DNA from: Cellulomonas sp. KRMCY2
Lineage (GTDB): Bacteria > Actinomycetota > Actinomycetes > Actinomycetales > Cellulomonadaceae
Direction: 5' to 3'
NCBI RefSeq assembly: GCF_000526515.1
Contig: NZ_JAGF01000001.1
Coordinates: 3,100,001-3,164,000 of the forward strand
Length of the DNA stretch: 64,000 nucleotides
Below, in pieces: positions 7,710 to 20,721 of this stretch. The stretch's first letter is position 1. Every line of letters starts with the position of its first letter. Under the pieces are notes generated by a model. The model was not told where the DNA came from. It made no database searches and saw only the letters and a list, made by a program, of their open reading frames with translations. A program made the position numbers and the translations under genes.

Positions 7710-9425
7710 ATGAGCGAAGCCACCGCGCCGGAGCCCGTTGTCGACATCAAGCCCCGCAGCCGCACGGTCACCGACGGCCTGGAGGCCACGGCCGCGCGGG
7801 GCATGCTGCGGGCCGTCGGCCTCGGTGACGACGACTTCGCCAAACCGCAGATCGGCGTCGCCTCGTCCTGGAACGAGATCACCCCGTGCAACCTGTCGCT
7901 CGACCGGCTGGCCAAGGCAGCCAAGGCCGGGGTGCACGCGGCGGGCGGCTACCCGCTCGAGTTCGGCACCATCTCGGTCTCCGACGGCATCTCGATGGGC
8001 CATGAGGGGATGCACTTCTCGTTGGTCAGCCGCGACATCATCGCCGACTCCGTCGAGACGGTCATGCAGGCCGAGCGTCTGGACGGCTCCGTCCTGCTGG
8101 CCGGCTGTGACAAGTCGCTGCCTGGCATGCTCATGGCCGCCGCACGACTCGACCTGGCGAGCGTGTTCCTCTACGCCGGCTCGATCATGCCGGGCTTCGT
8201 GAGGCTCACCGACGGCACCGAGAAGGACGTCACGATCATCGACGCCTTCGAGGCGGTCGGCGCGTGCGCGCGGGGTCTGATGAGCCGCGAGGACGTCGAC
8301 CTCATCGAGCGTGCGATCTGCCCGGGGGAGGGCGCCTGCGGTGGCATGTACACCGCGAACACGATGGCGTCCGTCGCCGAGGCGATCGGCATGTCGATCC
8401 CGGGGTCTGCAGCGCCGCCGTCCGCGGACCGTCGCCGCGACGTGTTCGCGCACAAGTCCGGCGAGGCGGTCGTCGGGCTGCTGCGCCAGGGGATCACGGC
8501 CCGCCAGATCATGACGAAGGAGGCGTTCGAGAACGCCATCGCCGTGGTGATGGCCTTCGGCGGGTCGACGAACGCCGTGCTGCACCTCCTGGCGATCGCG
8601 TACGAGGCGGAGGTCGACCTGACACTCGACGACTTCACGCGCGTGGCGGCACGCGTGCCGCACCTCGGCGACCTCAAGCCGTTCGGGCGGTACGTGATGA
8701 ACGACGTCGACCGCATCGGCGGCGTGCCCGTCGTGATGAAGGCGCTGCTCGACGCCGGCCTGCTGCACGGGGACTGCCTGACGGTGACCGGCAAGACCGT
8801 CGCCGAGAACCTCGCCGACATCGCGCCGCCGGACCCGGACGGCAAGATCCTGCGGGCCATGGACAACCCCATCCACCGAACCGGCGGGATCACGATCCTG
8901 CGCGGATCGCTCGCACCGGACGGCGCAGTGGTCAAGTCCGCCGGCTTCGACTCCGACGTGTTCGAGGGGACCGCGCGTGTCTTCGACCGTGAGCGGGCCG
9001 CGATGGACGCGCTCGAGGACGGCACCATCGTGGCCGGCGACGTCGTGGTGATCCGCTACGAGGGCCCCAAGGGCGGCCCGGGCATGCGCGAGATGCTCGC
9101 CATCACCGGGGCGATCAAGGGCGCCGGCCTCGGCAAGGACGTCCTGCTGCTCACGGACGGGCGGTTCTCCGGCGGTACGACCGGTCTGTGCGTCGGGCAC
9201 GTGGCGCCCGAGGCTGTCGACGCCGGCCCGATCGCCTTCGTCCGGAGCGGTGACCGGATCCGGCTCGACGTCGCCAACGCCACGCTCGACCTGCTGGTGG
9301 ACGAGGACGAGCTGGCGCGCCGCAAGGTCGGCTGGACCCCGCTCGCACACGCCTACACGCGGGGCGTCCTCGCCCGGTACGCCAAGCTCGTCCAGTCGGC
9401 GTCCACGGGTGCCGTGCTCGCCTGA
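7710..9425 (+). CDS. ilvD: Dihydroxy-acid dehydratase, three-cysteine type
   Basis: A 571-residue IlvD that dehydrates 2,3-dihydroxy-isovalerate and dihydroxy-methylvalerate in valine, leucine and isoleucine synthesis. Three cluster cysteines are visible, in [20 protein letters not shown] and [16 protein letters not shown]. That is the set found in oxygen-tolerant [2Fe-2S] dehydratases such as the mycobacterial and plant enzymes. The transcript is probably leaderless: TAGACT at 7697-7702 lies 7 nt before the ATG and there is no ribosome binding site. A second, different ilvD lies at 18.9 kb. Tandem repeats follow the stop. Confidence 0.95.
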
Positions 9426-9584: not shown

Positions 9585-9614
9585 GTGCAGATGATCGTCG
9601 TAGTACCCACCTAG
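9585..9614 (+). CDS. ilvB operon leader peptide (attenuation)
   Basis: A nine-codon ORF reading (f)M-Q-M-I-V-V-V-P-T-stop: one Ile codon followed by three Val codons in a row. It begins at the predicted transcription start (7 nt after TAGTGT) and an intrinsic terminator lies 38 nt after its stop. This is the classical attenuator layout: ribosomes stalling at Ile/Val codons when charged tRNA is scarce would favour readthrough into ilvB. Candidate leader peptides with terminators upstream of ilvB are known for Corynebacterium, Mycobacterium and Streptomyces. I could not define the antiterminator pairing by eye. Confidence 0.8.
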
Positions 9615-9652
9615 CGCCGGCAGGCCGCCACGCCAGGTCTCGTCCGCGCGCA

Positions 9653-9689
9653 CCCCTCGAGAGCCCCCTGACGGGCCGAGGGGTTTTTT
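9653..9689 (+). terminator. Intrinsic terminator of the ilvB attenuator
   Basis: CCCCTCG (9653-9659) pairs with CGAGGGG (9677-9683), followed immediately by six T residues (9684-9689). It is one of only two clear T-tailed terminators in the window and it sits before, not after, a gene. Confidence 0.85.
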
Positions 9690-9720
9690 CATGTCAGGAC
9701 GACGGGGTCGGCGACACCGC

Positions 9721-9780
9721 ACCGCACAGCAGGACCGCACAGCAGGACCGCACAGCAGGACCGCGCAGCACGACCGCACG
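9721..9780. repeat. 13-bp tandem repeat in the ilvB 5' region
   Basis: ACCGCACAGCAGG is repeated exactly at 9721, 9734 and 9747, with a degenerate fourth copy at 9760 and a partial fifth. It lies between the attenuator terminator and the ilvB coding start, in a frame that stays open into ilvB. It could be untranslated leader or part of a low-complexity N-terminal extension. Confidence 0.85.
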
Positions 9781-9963
9781 AACCAGCTCGACACGAGCCA
9801 GACCGAAGCCAGGGAGAGCAACGATGGTCCAGGGCCCGAGCCCGGCGCCCCCGCCGGGGGCAGCCGTCCGACGCCGGAGCAGCACGCTCCGCGACCGCAC
9901 GCGCCGGGCGTCACGCCCGCCGACGCCGCACGCCCCGCGCCGGTGACGGTCCAGGGTGAGCCG

Positions 9964-11706
9964 ATGAATGGTGCGCAGTCGATCGTCCGTTCCCTCGAGG
10001 CCGCCGGTGCGGAGGTCGTCTTCGGCATCCCGGGCGGCGCCATCCTGCCGACCTACGACCCGCTGATGGACTCCAAGCTGCTCCGCCACATCCTGGTGCG
10101 GCACGAGCAGGGCGCCGGTCACGCAGCGTCCGGCTACGCCTACACCAGCGGCAAGGTCGGCGTGTGCATGGCCACCTCGGGTCCCGGTGCGACGAACCTG
10201 GTCACGCCGCTCGCGGACGCCAACATGGACTCCGTCGCCGTCGTCGCGATCACCGGGCAGGTCGGCGCCGCCATGATCGGGACCGACGCCTTCCAGGAGG
10301 CCGACATCGTCGGCATCACCCTGCCGGTCACCAAGCACAACTTCCTCGTGACCAACGCGGACGACATCCCGCGGGTGATCGCCGAGGCCTTCCACATCGC
10401 CGCCACCGGCCGGCCGGGTCCGGTGCTCGTCGACATCGCGAAGTCCGCGATGCAGGCCCGCACGACCTTCTCGTGGCCGCCGGCGATCGAGCTGCCGGGC
10501 TACCACCCGGTCACCAAGCCGCACGCCAAGCAGATCCGTGAGGCCGCCAGGCTGCTGGCCACCGCCCGCCGTCCGGTGCTCTACGTCGGCGGTGGTGCGA
10601 TCCGTTCGGGCGCCAGCGCCGAGCTCCGCGCACTGGCCGACGCGTCCGGGGCGCCGGTCGTGACGACCCTGATGGCCCGCGGCGCGCTGCCGGACTCCCA
10701 CCCGCAGAACCTCGGCATGCCCGGCATGCACGGGACGGTGCCGGCCGTGGCCGCCCTGCAGAAGGCGGACCTGATCGTCGCCCTCGGCACCCGCTTCGAC
10801 GACCGCGTGACCGGCAAGCTGTCGTCCTTCGCGCCGCACGCGACGATCGTGCACGCGGACATCGACCCGGCCGAGATCGGCAAGAACCGCCGGGTGGACG
10901 TGCCGATCGTCGGCGACCTCAAGGAGGTCATCGCCGACCTGCTGCCCGAGCTCGCCCGCGAGCACGCGCAGCACGGCAAGCCGGACCTCGAACGCTGGTG
11001 GCGGCAGATCGACGACTGGCGCGAGACCTTCCCGCTCGGCTACACCGAGACCGACGACGGGCACCTGGCCCCGCAGTACGTGATCCAGCGGATCGGCGAG
11101 ATCGCGGGCCCGGAGGCGGTGTACGTCTCGGGCGTCGGCCAGCACCAGATGTGGGCGGCGCAGTTCATCCGCTACGAGCGGCCCAACGCGTGGCTCAACT
11201 CGGGTGGCCTGGGCACCATGGGCTACTCGGTGCCCGCAGCGATGGGCGCCAAGGTCGGCGACCCGAGCCGCACGGTCTGGTCCATCGACGGCGACGGCTG
11301 CTTCCAGATGACCAACCAGGAGCTCGCGACCTGCGCGATCAACGACATCCCGATCAAGGTCGCGGTGATCAACAACTCGTCGCTCGGCATGGTGCGGCAG
11401 TGGCAGACGCTCTTCTACGAGTCGCGCTACTCGAACACCGATCTGCACACCGGCCACGGCACGGTCCGGATCCCGGACTTCGTCAAGCTCGCCGACGCGT
11501 ACGGCTGCGTCGGGCTGCGGTGCGAGACGAAGGCCGACGTCGACGCGACGATCAAGCGCGCGATGGAGATCAACGACCAGCCCGTCGTGATCGACTTCAC
11601 CGTCTCGCGCGACGCGATGGTCTGGCCGATGGTCGCCGCGGGGGTCAGCAACGACGAGATCCAGTACGCCCGCGGCATCAGCCCGGCCTGGGACCGGGAG
11701 GAGTAG
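9964..11706 (+). CDS. ilvB: Acetolactate synthase, catalytic subunit
   Basis: At least 580 residues of the thiamine-diphosphate enzyme that condenses two pyruvates to acetolactate, or pyruvate with 2-oxobutyrate to acetohydroxybutyrate. The N-terminal domain carries the catalytic Glu ([14 protein letters not shown]), the middle domain binds FAD, and the C-terminal domain has the ThDP motif from [11 protein letters not shown] to INN. The start is uncertain: ATG 9964 follows GGGTGAG, but homologs have a short polar extension, and GTG 9943 or earlier in-frame codons are possible. Expression is under the upstream leader-peptide attenuator. Its stop overlaps the next gene. Confidence 0.93.
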
Positions 11707-12430
11707 TGCGCCGCATCGGACTGCTCGGCGGGACGTCCTGGGAGTCCACGGTCGGGTACTACCGCCTGCTCAACGAGGGCGTCCGGGATCGGCTCGGCGG
11801 CAAGCACTCCGCCGACCTCCTGCTGCGCTCGTTCGAGTTCGCCGAGATCTGCGAGCTGCAGGAGGCGGACGACTGGGCGGCTCTCGGAGCGATCTACGCC
11901 ACCGAGGCGGCGGTGCTGCGCGACGGCGGCGCTCGGGTGCTGGGCATCTGCGCCAACACGATGCACCTGGTGTACGACGACGTCGTCCAGGGCTCCGGAC
12001 TGCCGGTGGTCCACGTCGTCGAGGCGGTGGCCGATGCCGCCCAGGCAGCGGGGATCGAGCGGCTGGCGCTGCTCGGGACGCGCTACACGATGGGCAGCGA
12101 CCTCTACCCGTCCCGGCTCGCGCCCCGCGGCATCGAGGTCCTCGTCCCCGACACCGAGGACGCGGCCGAGGTCAACCGGTTGATCCACGACGAGCTCGTC
12201 CTCGGGCAGGTCGGGGAGCTCTCGGCGCGGCGCCTGCGGGGGATCGTCGACCGGCTCGTCGCACGTGGCGCCCAGGGCGTCGTCCTGGGGTGCACGGAGC
12301 TCGGCATGGTCATCGACCCGGCCGACCCGACGCTCCCGGTGCCGGCTCTGGACAGCCTGACCCTTCACGTCAACGCCCTCCTCGACGCGGCTCTCGAGCC
12401 GCTGACCACGTCACTGGAAGAAGGTGCAGC

Positions 12431-15727: not shown

Positions 15728-16846
15728 ATGAGCACCACGCACGCCCCCGAGCTGTCCTCCGCAGCGGCCGCGTTCGACATCCGGCGCACCGACGCGCCGC
15801 GCGACGACGTCGAGCGCGCCGCGCTGCTCGAGTCACCGGCCTTCGGGACGGTCTTCACCGACCACATGGCACGCATCACCTGGACCGCCGACGGTGGCTG
15901 GCAGGACCGCCGCGTCGAGAAGCACGGACCGCTGCTGCTCGACCCCGCTGCCGCCGTCCTGCACTACGGCCAGGAGATCTTCGAGGGCCTCAAGGCGTAC
16001 CGGCACGCCGACGCGTCGGTGTGGACCTTCCGCGCGCACGCCAACGCCGCGCGCTTCGCCGCCTCCGCCCGGCGGCTCGCGCTGCCGGAGCTGCCGGCCG
16101 AGGACTTCCTCGGCTCGATCGAGGCCCTCGTCGCGACGGACGCAGCCTGGGTTCCCGACGGGGACGAGACCAGCCTGTACCTGCGGCCCTTCATGTACGC
16201 CTCGGAGTCCTTCCTCGGGGTCCGCCCGGCCCGCGCCGTGGAGTACCTCGTCATCGCCTCGCCGGTGGGCCCCTACTTCGCCAGCGGTGTGCACCCCGTG
16301 GCGATCTGGGTCGCCGAGGACTTCCACCGCGCCGGCCCGGGCGGCACGGGCGCCGCCAAGTGCGGCGGCAACTACGCCGCGAGCCTGCTCCCGCAGCAGG
16401 AGGCGTACGAGAAGGGCTGTGAGCAGGTCTGCTTCCTCGACGCCGCCACGAACACCCAGCTCGAGGAGCTCGGTGGGATGAACGTCTTCTTGGTCGGCGC
16501 GTCGGGCACCGTGACGACGCCGGCGCTGAGCGGCACGATCCTCGAGGGCGTGACGCGCTCCTCGGTGATCGCGCTGCTGCGTGCGGCGGGGCGCGAGGTC
16601 GTCGAGCGTTCGATCCCCCTCGCCGAGCTGCGTACCGGGCTGCAGGACGGCTCGGTCGCCGAGGTGTTCGCCTGCGGCACCGCGGCCGTCGTCACGCCGA
16701 TCGGCCGGCTCGCCGGCGAGGACTTCGACCTGACGGTCGGCGACGGGGCCACCGGGACCGTGACGGCTGCGGTCCGCCGCGAGCTCACCGACATCCAGTA
16801 CGGCCGCGTCCCCGACCCGCACGGCTGGATGCACCGCCTGGTCTGA
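15728..16846 (+). CDS. ilvE: Branched-chain amino acid aminotransferase
   Basis: A 372-residue fold-IV PLP enzyme that transfers the amino group between glutamate and the 2-oxo acids of Leu, Ile and Val. The PLP lysine is in GTGAAKCGGNYAASL (about residue 210), and LEELGGMNVF and GVTRSSVIAL are typical of the long BCAT group found in actinobacteria. AAAGGA 9 nt before the ATG sets the start. It is the last step of the pathway formed with the surrounding ilv genes. Confidence 0.95.
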   Translation: MSTTHAPELSSAAAAFDIRRTDAPRDDVERAALLESPAFGTVFTDHMARITWTADGGWQDRRVEKHGPLLLDPAAAVLHYGQEIFEGLKAYRHADASVWTFRAHANAARFAASARRLALPELPAEDFLGSIEALVATDAAWVPDGDETSLYLRPFMYASESFLGVRPARAVEYLVIASPVGPYFASGVHPVAIWVAEDFHRAGPGGTGAAKCGGNYAASLLPQQEAYEKGCEQVCFLDAATNTQLEELGGMNVFLVGASGTVTTPALSGTILEGVTRSSVIALLRAAGREVVERSIPLAELRTGLQDGSVAEVFACGTAAVVTPIGRLAGEDFDLTVGDGATGTVTAAVRRELTDIQYGRVPDPHGWMHRLV

Positions 16847-16874: not shown

Positions 16875-16903
16875 TTCTCAGGTCGGGGGACGTGTGGCAT
16901 GAT
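16875..16903 (+). promoter_or_regulatory. Promoter of the cimA leader
   Basis: TTCTCA (16875-16880) and CATGAT (16898-16903, four of six to TATAAT) are 17 bp apart. Six nt downstream begins the GTG of the leader peptide, so the transcript is probably leaderless. Confidence 0.6.
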
Positions 16904-16909
16904 GCGCAC

Positions 16910-16939
16910 GTGGCTCGCTTCACCCTCATTATCGAGTAG
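16910..16939 (+). CDS. Leader peptide upstream of citramalate synthase (attenuation)
   Basis: A nine-codon ORF reading (f)M-A-R-F-T-L-I-I-E-stop, with Leu-Ile-Ile near the end; one Ile codon is ATT, rare in this GC-rich DNA. It begins 6 nt after the predicted -10. A perfect 9-bp hairpin starts on the base right after its stop and an intrinsic terminator follows. This matches leader-peptide attenuation, with Ile (and Leu) availability sensed before cimA. In actinobacteria the analogous region is usually discussed for leuA (LEU element); here the controlled gene is of the citramalate synthase type. Confidence 0.75.
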   Translation: MARFTLIIE

Positions 16940-16964
16940 CGCGTTCGGAACACCACCGAACGCG
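16940..16964 (+). promoter_or_regulatory. Hairpin directly after the leader peptide stop
   Basis: CGCGTTCGG (16940-16948) pairs perfectly with CCGAACGCG (16956-16964) around a 7-nt loop. It starts on the base after the leader TAG, so a terminating ribosome would cover its left arm. It could be a pause or competing structure of the attenuator. Confidence 0.7.
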
Positions 16965-16965
16965 C

Positions 16966-16994
16966 AGACCTCCCGTACCCCGGGGGGTCTTTTT
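16966..16994 (+). terminator. Intrinsic terminator of the cimA attenuator
   Basis: AGACCTCCC (16966-16974) pairs with GGGGGGTCT (16982-16990) including one G-U pair, followed by a run of T ending at 16994. The cimA start is 187 bp further on, so transcription must read through it. Confidence 0.85.
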
Positions 16995-17181
16995 GTTGGT
17001 CGGGCACCACCCCCGCCCCGCCGACACCGTCGTCCGCAGCCCGGCACCACCCCGCCGGCGCCCCGCCAACCGGAGCGTGGATGACGCAGGTCCAGCACGA
17101 TGCGCAGCAGGAGAGCCAGCAGGTCCACCAGCAGTCCCGCCCGGCGGCGCCGCCGGGCGGCTCGACCGAGGAGAGCATCCC

Positions 17182-18816
17182 GTGGCATCCACGACCTTCG
17201 ACGTCTACGACACGACCCTGCGCGACGGGGCGCAGCAGGAGGGCATGAACCTGTCCGTCATGGACAAGCTCGCCATCGCCCCGCTGCTCGACGAGCTCGG
17301 TGTCGGTTTCATCGAGGGCGGCTGGCCCGGCGCGATCCCGAAGGACACCGAGTTCTTCAAGCGCGCCGCCAAGGAGCTCGACTTCCGCAACGCCGAGCTC
17401 GCGGCGTTCGGCTCGACCCGCAAGGCCGGCGCCCGGGCGCACGACGACGCCCAGGTCCGCGCGCTGATGGACTCCGAGGCGCCGGTGGTCACGCTGGTGG
17501 CCAAGAGCGACATCCGGCACGTGGAGCGGGCGCTGCGCACCACCGGCGAGGAGAACCTCGCGATGATCTCGGACACGGTGGCCTACCTGCGAGGCGAGGG
17601 GCGCCGGGTGATCCTGGACGCCGAGCACTTCTTCGACGGGTTCCGCTTCGACCCGGAGTACGCCCTGCGCGCCGCCGTCGCCGCGTTCGCGGCCGGCGCT
17701 GAGGTCGTCACCCTGTGCGACACGAACGGCGGCATGCTGCCGGACTGGGTGCACGAGGTCGTCGCCAGGGTCCGGGCCGAGACCGACGGGCGGATCGGCA
17801 TGCACGCCCACAACGACACCGGGTGCGCCGTGGCGAACACGCTCGCCGCCGTCGCGGCCGGTGCGATGCACGTCCAGGGCACCGTCAACGGGTACGGGGA
17901 GCGCACCGGCAACGCGGACCTCGGCGCGGTCGTCGCGAACCTCCAGATCAAGCTGGGCCGGTCGGTGCTGCTCGGCGACGGACTGCGTGAGCTGACGCGC
18001 ATCTCGCACGCCATCAGTGAGATCACCAACATCGCGCCGTTCGCGCGGCAGCCGTACGTCGGCGCGAGCGCGTTCGCGCACAAGGGCGGTCTGCACGCCA
18101 GCGCCATCAAGGTCGACCCGAACATGTACCAGCACACCGACCCGATGGTCGTCGGCAACGACATGCGCATGCTGGTCTCGGACATGGCGGGCCGCGCGTC
18201 CATCGAGCTCAAGGGCCGCGAGTTCGGCATCGACCTCTCCGGTCAGGGCGAGCTGCTGACGAGGGTCACCAACCGGGTCAAGGACGCCGAGGCGCAGGGC
18301 TACACCTACGACGCCGCCGACGCGTCCTTCGAGCTGCTGCTGCGCGAGGAGCTCGACGGCTCCAGGCCGTCGTTCTTCTGCACCGAGAGCTGGCGCGTGA
18401 TCGTCGAGACGGTGCCGGGCAGGCCGTCCGAGGCCGGCGCCGAGGGGACCGTCAAGATGCACGTCGGCGGGGAGCGGATGGTCGCGACGGCGGAGGGCAA
18501 CGGCCCGGTCAACGCCCTGGACGCCGCGCTGCGCAAGGCCGTCGCCCCCACCTACCCGGAGATCGAGCGGTTCGAGCTGATCGACTTCAAGGTGCGGATC
18601 CTGGACACCGAGCACGGCACCGATGCCGTCACGCGGGTGCTCGTCGAGACCATGGACACCGGTGCGGAGACCACTTGGATGACCGTCGGGGTCGGGCCGA
18701 ACATCGTCGAGGCGTCCTGGGAGGCGCTGGTCGACGCCATCGTCTACGGGTTGCTCCGTGCCGGTGTGGAGAACCGTTCCGAGACGCCCGAGGGTGTCGA
18801 CACCGACTGCCACTAG
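17182..18816 (+). CDS. cimA: (R)-citramalate synthase
   Basis: A 544-residue protein of the isopropylmalate/citramalate synthase family. The N-terminal TIM barrel has YDTTLRDGAQQEG (metal site), FIEGGWPGAIPKD and the MHAHNDTGCAVANT His motif (about residue 208); the C-terminal part is the LeuA-type allosteric domain. GAQQEG and IEGGWPG are typical of the citramalate branch rather than of leucine-pathway LeuA. It would condense acetyl-CoA with pyruvate to citramalate, the threonine-independent entry to isoleucine, continued by LeuCD and LeuB. GTG 17182 follows GAGGAGAG. It lies under the leader-peptide attenuator. No leuA is in this window. Confidence 0.87.
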   Translation: MASTTFDVYDTTLRDGAQQEGMNLSVMDKLAIAPLLDELGVGFIEGGWPGAIPKDTEFFKRAAKELDFRNAELAAFGSTRKAGARAHDDAQVRALMDSEAPVVTLVAKSDIRHVERALRTTGEENLAMISDTVAYLRGEGRRVILDAEHFFDGFRFDPEYALRAAVAAFAAGAEVVTLCDTNGGMLPDWVHEVVARVRAETDGRIGMHAHNDTGCAVANTLAAVAAGAMHVQGTVNGYGERTGNADLGAVVANLQIKLGRSVLLGDGLRELTRISHAISEITNIAPFARQPYVGASAFAHKGGLHASAIKVDPNMYQHTDPMVVGNDMRMLVSDMAGRASIELKGREFGIDLSGQGELLTRVTNRVKDAEAQGYTYDAADASFELLLREELDGSRPSFFCTESWRVIVETVPGRPSEAGAEGTVKMHVGGERMVATAEGNGPVNALDAALRKAVAPTYPEIERFELIDFKVRILDTEHGTDAVTRVLVETMDTGAETTWMTVGVGPNIVEASWEALVDAIVYGLLRAGVENRSETPEGVDTDCH

Positions 18817-18867: not shown

Positions 18868-20721
18868 ATGCCCGCGCTGCGGTCCCGGACGGTCACCCAC
18901 GGGCGGAACATGGCGGGGGCGAGGGCGCTGCTGCGGGCCGCCGGCGTGGACGCTGCGGACTTCGGCAAGCCGATCATCGCCGTCGCGAACAGCTTCACCG
19001 AGTTCGTCCCGGGGCACACCCACCTGCAGCCCGTCGGTCGCATCGTCTCCGAGGCGATCCACGCGGCCGGGGGCATCGCGCGGGAGTTCAACACGATCGC
19101 GGTCGACGACGGGATCGCGATGGGCCACAGCGGCATGCTCTACTCGCTGCCCTCCCGGGACCTGATCGCCGACAGCGTCGAGTACATGGTCAACGCGCAC
19201 TGCGCCGACGCCCTGGTCTGCATCTCCAACTGCGACAAGATCACCCCCGGGATGCTCATGGCCGCGCTGCGCCTGAACATCCCGACGGTCTTCGTCTCCG
19301 GGGGGCCGATGGAGGGCGGCACCGCCGTGCTCGTGGACGGGACCGTGCGTCGCCGGCTCCACCTGGTCGACGCGATGTCGGACGCCGTCTCGGACACGGT
19401 CTCCGACGAGGACCTGCTCCGGGTCGAGGAGGCGGCCTGCCCGACCTGCGGCTCGTGCTCCGGCATGTTCACCGCGAACTCGATGAACTGCCTGGTCGAG
19501 GCGCTGGGGCTGGCCCTGCCCGGCAACGGCTCGGTGCTGGCCACCCACACGGCGCGCAAGGACCTGTACGAGGCGGCCGGGGCGACGGTCGTCGAGCTGA
19601 CCCGGCGGTACTACGGCACCGACGACCCGAGCGTGCTGCCGCGGGCGATCGCCACCCGCGCGGCGTTCGAGAACGCGATGGCCCTGGACGTCGCGATGGG
19701 CGGGTCGACCAACACCGTCCTGCACCTGCTGGCCGCCGCGCACGAGGCTGAGGTCGACTTCACGATGCCGGACATCGACGCCCTCTCGCGCCGCGTCCCG
19801 TGCCTGTCCAAGGTCGCCCCGAACGGCACCTACCTGATGGAGGACGTGCACCGCGCCGGCGGGGTGCCGGCGATCCTCGGTGAGCTGGACCGGGCGGGGC
19901 TGCTGCGTCAGGACGTGCACGCCGTGCACGCCGACTCGCTGGCCGCCTGGCTCAAGGAGTGGGACATCCGGGGCGGGTCACCGGCCCCGGCGGCCGTCGA
20001 GCTGTTCCACGCGGCGCCCGGCTGCGTACGGTCGGCGACGGCGTTCTCCCAGTCGGAGCGGTGGGCGACGCTCGACGACGACGCCGCGGGCGGCTGCATC
20101 CGCGACGTCGCGCACGCCTACACGGCCGACGGCGGACTCGCCGTCCTGCGCGGGAACCTCGCCGCGGACGGCTGCGTCGTCAAGACGGCGGGGGTCGACG
20201 CCTCGGTGCTGGTCTTCAGCGGACCGGCAGTCGTCGTGGAGTCCCAGGAGGAGGCCTGCGAAGCCATCCTGGCCGACCGCGTGGTCGCCGGGGACGTCGT
20301 CGTGGTCCGGTACGAGGGCCCGAGCGGCGGACCGGGGATGCAGGAGATGCTCTACCCGACGGCCTACCTCAAGGGTCGGCGCCTGGGTGCCGTGTGCGCC
20401 CTGGTGACCGACGGCCGGTTCTCCGGGGGGACGTCCGGCCTGTCGATCGGCCACGTGTCGCCCGAGGCGGCCGCCGGCGGGGTCATCGCCCTGGTCCAGG
20501 ACGGCGACCTGATCGAGATCGACATCCCCGGCCGCCGGATCGAGGTCAAGGTCGACGAGGCCGAGCTCGCCCGGCGGCGGGCCGCGGTCGAGGCGTCGGG
20601 GGGCTACCGCCCGCGGACCCGGCAGCGGGTCGTCTCGCCGGCGCTCCGGGCCTATGCCGCGATGGCGACGTCGGCCGACCGGGGCGCCGTGCGCGACGTG
20701 GACCGGCTCCCGCTGGTCTGA
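18868..20721 (+). CDS. ilvD: Dihydroxy-acid dehydratase, E. coli type
   Basis: A 617-residue IlvD, second in the window and of the other subfamily: it matches the E. coli enzyme over its length ([48 protein letters not shown]). The first cluster Cys of the three-Cys type is replaced here (FVPGH instead of ITPCN), as in the oxygen-labile [4Fe-4S] E. coli enzyme. GGAAGGAG precedes the ATG by 7 nt. It follows cimA by 51 bp and is probably cotranscribed, so it may serve isoleucine synthesis specifically. Transfer from a proteobacterial donor is possible but not shown by base composition. Confidence 0.94.

Follow-up and report, generated by a model that had tools for sequence, protein, structure and literature searches.

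How does the transcription of a citramalate synthase gene follow the supply of isoleucine? The question is raised by the window, a 64,000-nucleotide (nt) stretch of the Cellulomonas sp. KRMCY2 genome (contig NZ_JAGF01000001.1, positions 3100001-3164000), in which cimA (17182..18816, forward strand, GTG start) is preceded by a short open reading frame (ORF) with two adjacent Ile codons, a hairpin and an intrinsic terminator. Our reading is that an isoleucine-sensing leader sets how often transcription stops ahead of cimA, and we give it a probability of roughly 0.77. CimA is the entry to the threonine-independent isoleucine route; the leader would provide citramalate synthase with a control signal of its own, separate from those of ilvB and leuA, and the level of the enzyme could probably rise when isoleucine is short. 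Ile-specific control of cimA by its leader appears well supported by comparison among genomes. The anatomy of the leader, its conservation, the match between its codons and the downstream gene, and the near-fixed position of the Ile codons relative to the hairpin are direct observations; ribosome stalling and the resulting relief of termination we infer.

An earlier sequence-only reading of the window had assigned the gene to citramalate synthase and not to LeuA, and this is borne out by profile searches, in which the product scores 624.7 bits against TIGR00977 (citramal_synth; cut-off 450) and all LeuA models listed for it stay below their own cut-offs. The same reading described a promoter, a nine-codon ORF starting 6 nt past the -10 hexamer, a hairpin and a terminator with a T-run ahead of the gene, and each of these is present, all on the forward strand. 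The promoter-like site (16875..16903) consists of TTCTCA (16875-16880) and CATGAT (16898-16903; extended TGGCATGAT) with a 17-nt spacer, and is followed after six bases by the GTG at 16910. This codon opens the nine-codon leader ORF (16910..16939; GTG GCT CGC TTC ACC CTC ATT ATC GAG TAG, MARFTLIIE-stop), in which the putative regulatory Ile codons ATT ATC occupy 16928..16933 and are conserved across cimA leaders. The hairpin, here called P1 (16939..16965), had been described as a perfect stem of 9 base pairs (bp) beginning on the base after the stop codon; the hairpin stands, but the G of TAG pairs in addition to the stem CGCGTTCGG/CCGAACGCG, so that P1 has 10 bp (16939-16948 with 16956-16965) and its first base is the last base of the stop codon. 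Flush against P1 lies the intrinsic terminator (16966..16994), with a 10-bp stem (16966-16975 with 16981-16990) and a T-run (16990-16994); a terminator scan gives three overlapping calls here, where shuffled sequences average 0.1. The cimA start follows 242 nt after the leader stop.

No sigma-70-type promoter is called here at threshold by a consensus promoter scan, and the promoter call therefore rests on conservation. A promoter-like site was obtained for 70 of the 73 cimA leaders, and the extended TG, which the rule does not require, is retained in most of them (T in 64/70, G in 64/70). In 65/70 leaders the start codon lies 6-7 nt past the -10-like hexamer, a spacing that the rule favours. 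This layout is as expected for leaderless transcripts, and the leader ORF is predicted to be leaderless, with its start at or beside the RNA 5' end; leader peptides of Streptomyces lividans, IlvL among them, are described as leaderless in the accessible portion of one report (PMC8079986).

Comparison of the upstream regions of related cimA genes, by which the sequence-only reading could be checked, shows that the mini-ORF is conserved together with its Ile codons, and that hairpin and terminator are conserved too. Two covariance models were used: R1, which was trained on 36 cimA leaders and includes the codon columns, and R2, which was built from 18 more distant leaders, without L001-L034 and L040, which represent the window's genus and the nearest named genera. 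Over the whole genome, at E values up to 10, R2 retrieves the cimA leader of the window as its sole match (76.8 bits, E 4.5e-17); with filters off, and for the window only, three further weak matches appear (E 0.35-0.79), one of which is the opposite strand of P1. The element accompanies 30/30 best CimA matches among 59 relatives, and R1 finds it directly ahead of CimA at 61 of 77 loci (L001-L077), 36 of these being the R1 training set; the conservation search by R1 took in 95 of 110 loci. Cellulomonas species are the nearest named relatives of the window genome, and named carriers extend from near (Cellulomonas, Isoptericola, Demequina, Pedococcus, Nocardioides) to further lineages (Motilibacter, Nonomuraea, Amycolatopsis, Kutzneria, Lentzea, Pseudonocardia). 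Among 197 genomes of the window's class, an R2 match (E 0.001) is found in 130 and CimA (E 1e-120) in 155, and of the 150 CimA matches listed, 109 or more are preceded at 18-230 nt by an R2 element on the same strand. Phylum-wide, R1 matches 69 of 296 genomes, and CimA is found in 218. Furthermore, the two stems covary: in 36 sequences, 96.7% of cells are paired and 11 of 20 pairs show changes on both sides, and the covariation score of both stems is reached by 0 of 500 shuffles.

The codons of the leader follow the gene that lies downstream. Among the 120 elements counted, Ile is present within the last six leader codons in all 73 cimA leaders and as a pair in 66 of them, and it falls in codon columns 7-9 in 67/73 and 10-12 in 62/73. 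The Leu-Ile-Ile leader of the sequence-only reading is therefore kept in its Ile part, but Leu occupies its position in just 34/73 leaders; the putative regulatory residue is Ile, rather than the Leu of Leu-Ile-Ile. In contrast, the Ile pair occurs in 0/37 ilvB leaders, which are mixtures of Leu, Val and Ile and contain Val in 36/37, while leuA and leuS leaders carry Leu, and the eight of them counted contain no Ile. Expressed as a share of Ile, Leu and Val codons, Ile makes up 165/237 in cimA leaders versus 29/152 in ilvB leaders (Fisher p 3e-23, a value that, given the kinship among rows and their partly different lineages, is not a probability of independent events). A control for lineage is provided by 19 family genomes with both leaders, in which the Ile pair occurs in 18/19 cimA versus 1/19 ilvB leaders and Val in 19/19 of the latter; here the ilvB leaders read, for example, ILVVLT, LVVLA or ILLVLG, and the cimA leaders LIIE, LIIV or LIIA. 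Of 17 further ilvB loci in the class, 16 were counted (L249 was left aside for its unclear reading frame) and none has the Ile pair. At the leuA loci of relatives, an LLL mini-ORF is found in 15/20, and the window's own genome reads VTLSGLLLRRRGEV. Both ATT and ATC occur as leader Ile codons, and ATT accounts for 78/165 in leaders versus 0/150 in seven window genes, which would fit a rare codon that sharpens the sensing of Ile.

Several selection rules bear on these counts. The initial pattern for cimA leaders required two Ile codons, and L025, L027-L030, L032 and L088, which fell outside the pattern or rule, were added by hand; most of them had previously been seen with a pattern that does not require Ile. 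Family ilvB leaders were selected for Ile/Leu/Val content and leuA leaders for at least three Leu, so that the presence of these leaders is partly by choice, while the contrast between Ile, Leu and Val is not; 7 of 30 family ilvB loci yielded no clear leader by the selection rule. Two leuA/leuS leaders and one ilvB leader (L156, L159, L172) were counted out of frame, and their right frames (ALLLSPPR, LELLLR, LVLLLVSR) add no Ile. L031 was excluded as a copy of L017. Omitted from the codon counts were 11 of the 69 phylum-wide loci, those with no identified branched-chain gene or leuS (L127, L129, L157, L169, L170, L171, L175-L179), of which L178 is a chance match inside an open frame.

The same anatomy stands before other branched-chain genes. 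When 69 of the R1 loci (L112-L180) were read, 36 were found to precede acetolactate synthase (ilvB), 12 CimA of more than 50% identity, four 2-isopropylmalate synthase, four leucyl-tRNA synthetase and two a leuB-type gene; at both of the latter, the genome encodes its cimA on that contig as well, some 2 kb further downstream. Sampled ilvB, leuA, leuS and leuB genes were confirmed by NCBIfam and the rest assigned by BLAST. One covariance model thus retrieves both cimA and ilvB leaders, one of the latter peptide-identical to Streptomyces IlvL, and among 20 R2 loci distant from cimA that were read (of 41 among the matches listed for the class), 17 precede ilvB. The codon columns of R1 and R2 lean towards Ile, and ilvB leaders were nevertheless found by both. 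The window itself holds such a sister leader, with the ORF VQMIVVVPT-stop (9585..9614, forward strand), of the same leader class as that of cimA, and by folding a P1-like hairpin and a terminator with a T-run (9614..9689, forward strand); its R1 match is weak (9597-9693, 12.0 bits, E 0.32). The ilvB open frame follows (9691..11706, forward strand), and its true start probably lies further inside, since the NCBIfam match begins only at residue 78.

A few loci outside these groups have a similar form. L157, L169 and L171 possess mini-ORFs ending FVAIA, FVGSA or FVGSH, followed by a hairpin and a terminator, with isocitrate lyase downstream of L157 (NCBIfam) and a homologue downstream of L169. 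Ile-rich leaders of the same form, MFALVIIM-stop and MFTPRIII-stop, are found at L238 and L239 ahead of small frames, one of which has a sub-threshold ACT-domain match, and both genomes also carry the cimA leader. At L127, a leader ending RVLLIT-stop precedes a frame with a match to prephenate dehydratase, a link that may be accidental.

Conservation of the hairpin raises another explanation, in which a protein binds P1 and the Ile codons are of little weight. The five basal P1 pairs, GCGCG with CGCGC, are identical in 36/36 sequences, and protein binding has been proposed for the LEU element of leuA in the accessible part of PMC1262725. Yet the identity of the codons tracks the downstream gene, ATT and ATC both serve for Ile, and ilvB members have different P1 bases. 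Factor-dependent control of this kind is consequently judged quite improbable.

The position of the Ile codons, by comparison, is tightly held. In 65/72 cimA leaders, the base that opens P1 is the third of the stop-codon position, and the gap between P1 and the terminator is 0-2 nt in 71/72 cimA and 28/35 ilvB leaders. The stop codon at that position is always TAG (84/84), as would be expected from the role of its G as the opening base of P1. In Nonomuraea, Amycolatopsis and family f21, where the ORF instead continues into P1, the Ile codons stay within one codon of their usual distance to P1. This near-fixed distance suggests that the regulated event would be the occupation of the P1 base by a ribosome on the Ile codons.

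Further hairpins were seen around these elements. In Nonomuraea, Acrocarpospora and Planotetraspora (L045, L047, L049), a third hairpin (e.g. CTGCT-CATTATC-AGCAG) has the Ile codons inside it and adjoins P1, giving three consecutive hairpins without linkers, and a small hairpin around the Ile codons is present in some of the folds listed. Between the terminator and cimA (16995-17075), several relatives keep more GC hairpins with ACCACCCC-type loops (GGTCCGGGC-ACCACCCCC-GCCCGGACC and CCGGCACCACCCCGCCGG).

In the mechanism we propose, RNA polymerase would start at or beside the GTG and the ribosome would load straight onto the RNA 5' end. With ample Ile-tRNA, the ribosome would pass both Ile codons, reach UAG and leave, after which P1 and then the terminator could fold and transcription would end. 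With Ile-tRNA in short supply, it would stall at the Ile codons with its leading edge within the 5' strand of P1; P1 would be blocked, and transcription would continue into cimA. As precedent, the sensing of amino acids by such a leader has been demonstrated at Mycobacterium tuberculosis ilvB1: the accessible part of PMC13236596 describes an LVVI leader that gives a short terminated RNA with premature ends in the leader, induction on inhibition of the enzyme, and abolition of that induction when LVVI is changed to Ala.

Several observations weigh against this reading. The element has no R1 match at 16 of the 77 CimA loci, and among the matches listed, 41 of 150 class CimA genes have no listed element. 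At 13 of these 16 loci, an upstream frame on the same strand ends no more than 46 nt from the CimA match, and for this reason the element seems to accompany a cimA that has its own promoter. The same 13 loci could be cited for a simpler explanation, namely that the region holds merely the terminator of ilvE and a promoter for cimA, the ORF being accidental; the terminator indeed lies about 120 nt past the ilvE end and would end ilvE transcripts too. This explanation does not account for the conservation of the Ile codons, of the register between stop codon and hairpin and of the extended -10, nor for the presence of the element upstream of cimA in 61/77 loci, and it is already disfavoured to the point of deserving very little credence. 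In addition, 7/73 cimA leaders have no Ile pair (e.g. RRVIR, RCLIS, AIYIV). Finally, according to the accessible part of PMC1262725, codon changes in the ilvB leader of Streptomyces coelicolor were reportedly without effect, and those at leuA had an effect reportedly inconsistent with attenuation.

The pairing expected of a classical attenuator also fails to appear. A 26-nt ribosome footprint was centred on the first Ile codon and the freed RNA paired with the terminator arms, with shuffles and six Escherichia coli leaders as controls. The first test was made on 60 cimA leaders from the first set, without the 12 from the phylum search, and L116 gave no terminator; a repeat under a different terminator rule covered 116 of the 120 elements, including 72/73 cimA leaders. 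With the terminator 5' arm, the freed RNA paired at a mean of -5.8 kcal/mol (z +0.80), and z was below -2 in 0/60 cimA leaders; the repeat gave z +0.57, with 1/72 cimA and 0/35 ilvB leaders under that threshold. In the first test, ilvB leaders gave z +0.27 (1/34) and leu leaders z +0.24 (0/8), the eight leu leaders pairing more strongly (mean -12.2 kcal/mol; L160 -19.0, z -1.33). The E. coli controls (thrL, leuL, trpL, ilvL, hisL and ivbL) averaged -17.8 with z -2.63, and 4/6 fell below -2, a threshold that would miss trpL and leuL (z -1.28 and -1.24). Family f21 is a less clear case, in that 5'-arm pairing amounts to -11.6 to -12.5 kcal/mol for some of its cimA leaders (z -2.05 at L148). In folds with the P1 base masked, the terminator persists in 72/72 cimA leaders and in 116/116 elements overall. 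A 5'-arm antiterminator at cimA and ilvB was accordingly rejected, as the pairing is no better than in shuffles, and one with the 3' arm is not supported. Of the attenuator envisaged in the sequence-only reading, the cognate codons and the terminator are thus retained, but the classical antiterminator was sought in the window and not found. Because no helix that excludes the terminator was found, the cimA leader does not qualify as a classical attenuator, and probably works to the same end; if control by Ile operates through termination, something other than the classical switch is needed.

One such alternative, and the main rival, is the structure proposed for the Corynebacterium ilvB-II motif in the accessible part of PMC10272879, in which the loop of P1 pairs with the terminator. 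When P1 is blocked, its C-rich loop would pair with the G-run of the terminator 3' strand and so prevent termination. The P1 loops of 60 cimA leaders are indeed 53% C and 7% G, and the freed region pairs with the terminator 3' arm at a mean of -11.6 kcal/mol, equalling the terminator in some species (e.g. L012, -17.7 versus -17.4). However, this barely exceeds shuffles (mean z -0.35, 4/60 below -2; z -0.20, 5/72 in the repeat), the window reaches just -8.1 versus -17.4 kcal/mol (z +0.43), and the 3' arm has a closer partner, with which it pairs fully, in the 5' arm of the terminator itself. The loop-pairing explanation is therefore considered unlikely.

Other ways of linking the leader to cimA were set aside. 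Direct coverage of the terminator by the ribosome was rejected, as P1, which is 27 nt long in the window's leader, extends to about 70 nt in family f21, and so was translational coupling or reinitiation, given the 242 nt from the leader stop to the cimA start. A role of P1 as a DNA operator is unlikely, since the loops between its arms vary greatly in length.

Returning to the isoleucine-sensing leader, a further step is proposed because no competing antiterminator helix was found: efficient termination may depend on P1 itself, which would stack on the terminator or hold the polymerase there. This is the least certain step of the mechanism, and we put it forward tentatively. Extended to the whole group, it leads to a speculative and somewhat more doubtful proposal, an Actinobacteria-wide family of amino-acid attenuators without antiterminator, in which the stalled ribosome covers the base of P1, and P1, flush with the terminator and opening within the stop codon, is a required helper of termination. 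If this were true, the leaders of cimA (Ile), ilvB (Leu/Val/Ile) and leuA/leuS (Leu) would be one device, differing mainly in the codons ahead of P1.

In the neighbourhood of cimA, profile searches place ilvE upstream (15728..16846) and ilvD downstream (18868..20721), both on the forward strand. On either side of the branched-chain cluster lies a gene for dihydroxy-acid dehydratase (7710-9425 and 18868-20721), the two belonging to different NCBIfam subfamilies, and an Asp/Glu racemase domain (Pfam PF01177, 133.6 bits) is encoded at about 11724-12377, directly after ilvB and ahead of ilvN.

Since leaders with different codons stand before cimA, ilvB and leuA in one genome, they offer a clean way to ask if the choice of codons is by itself enough to determine which amino acid the leader senses. 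In the accessible part of PMC1262725, leaders of Actinobacteria are portrayed as attenuators that lack some of their parts; the same gap in cimA and ilvB leaders, together with their fixed geometry, suggests another way of working and makes an old puzzle testable. The leader consensus can, in addition, aid the annotation of cimA genes.

As to precedent, the portion of PMC1262725 available lists actinobacterial leaders at trp, trpS, cys, ilvB, leuS and leuA, the word cimA being absent from that paper, and two motif papers, from 2023 and 2024, cover Corynebacterium ilvB (as far as is accessible; one is PMC10272879). A full-text literature search, with subscription papers outside its reach, found no account, for Actinobacteria, of a leader peptide or attenuator associated with citramalate synthase. 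An Rfam search of the window returned no match to the leader element or to a T-box, and only two tRNAs reach gathering scores. Like the T-box, the cimA leader is proposed to sense tRNA charging, but it has an ORF instead. The E. coli trp, his, leu, thr and ilv attenuators likewise combine a leader peptide with cognate codons, a hairpin and a terminator; unlike them, the cimA leader shows no 2:3 antiterminator, has P1 flush on the terminator and probably starts leaderless.

Closer comparisons are found within the Actinobacteria. The LEU element of leuA also has a mini-ORF with a run of its cognate amino acid, but it is a pseudoknot that pairs the Leu codons with the leuA ribosome site, whereas the cimA leader has a terminator about 190 nt before the cimA start; nor does the window's cimA leader show the Leu codon run and downstream LeuA that define that element. 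The Corynebacterium ilvB-II motif shares an upstream ORF with branched-chain codons, P1 and a terminator, P2; it is reported from Corynebacterium ilvB only, and its antiterminator between P1 loop and P2 is undetectable in the window's cimA leader. With the actinobacterial ilvB leaders (Streptomyces IlvL, MRTRILVLGKRVG; the LVVI upstream ORF of M. tuberculosis ilvB1), the cimA leader has in common branched-chain codons directly ahead of a hairpin, then an intrinsic terminator, and its ORF is predicted to begin, like theirs, close to or at the 5' end of the RNA. An antiterminator is part of the model drawn for M. tuberculosis (PMC13236596, accessible part), and none stands out in cimA leaders, which further differ in their conserved Ile codons, their nearly fixed GCGCG P1 base and their gene. 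The distinct attenuator class suggested by the sequence-only reading is thus new, as far as the literature searched shows, in its occurrence at cimA, but it is not isolated, the same anatomy being present at ilvB, leuA and leuS, including the ilvB of the window. The cimA leader is best classified, from these comparisons, as a putative Ile-specific variant of a class of leaders that is already known in Actinobacteria from ilvB, leuA and leuS.

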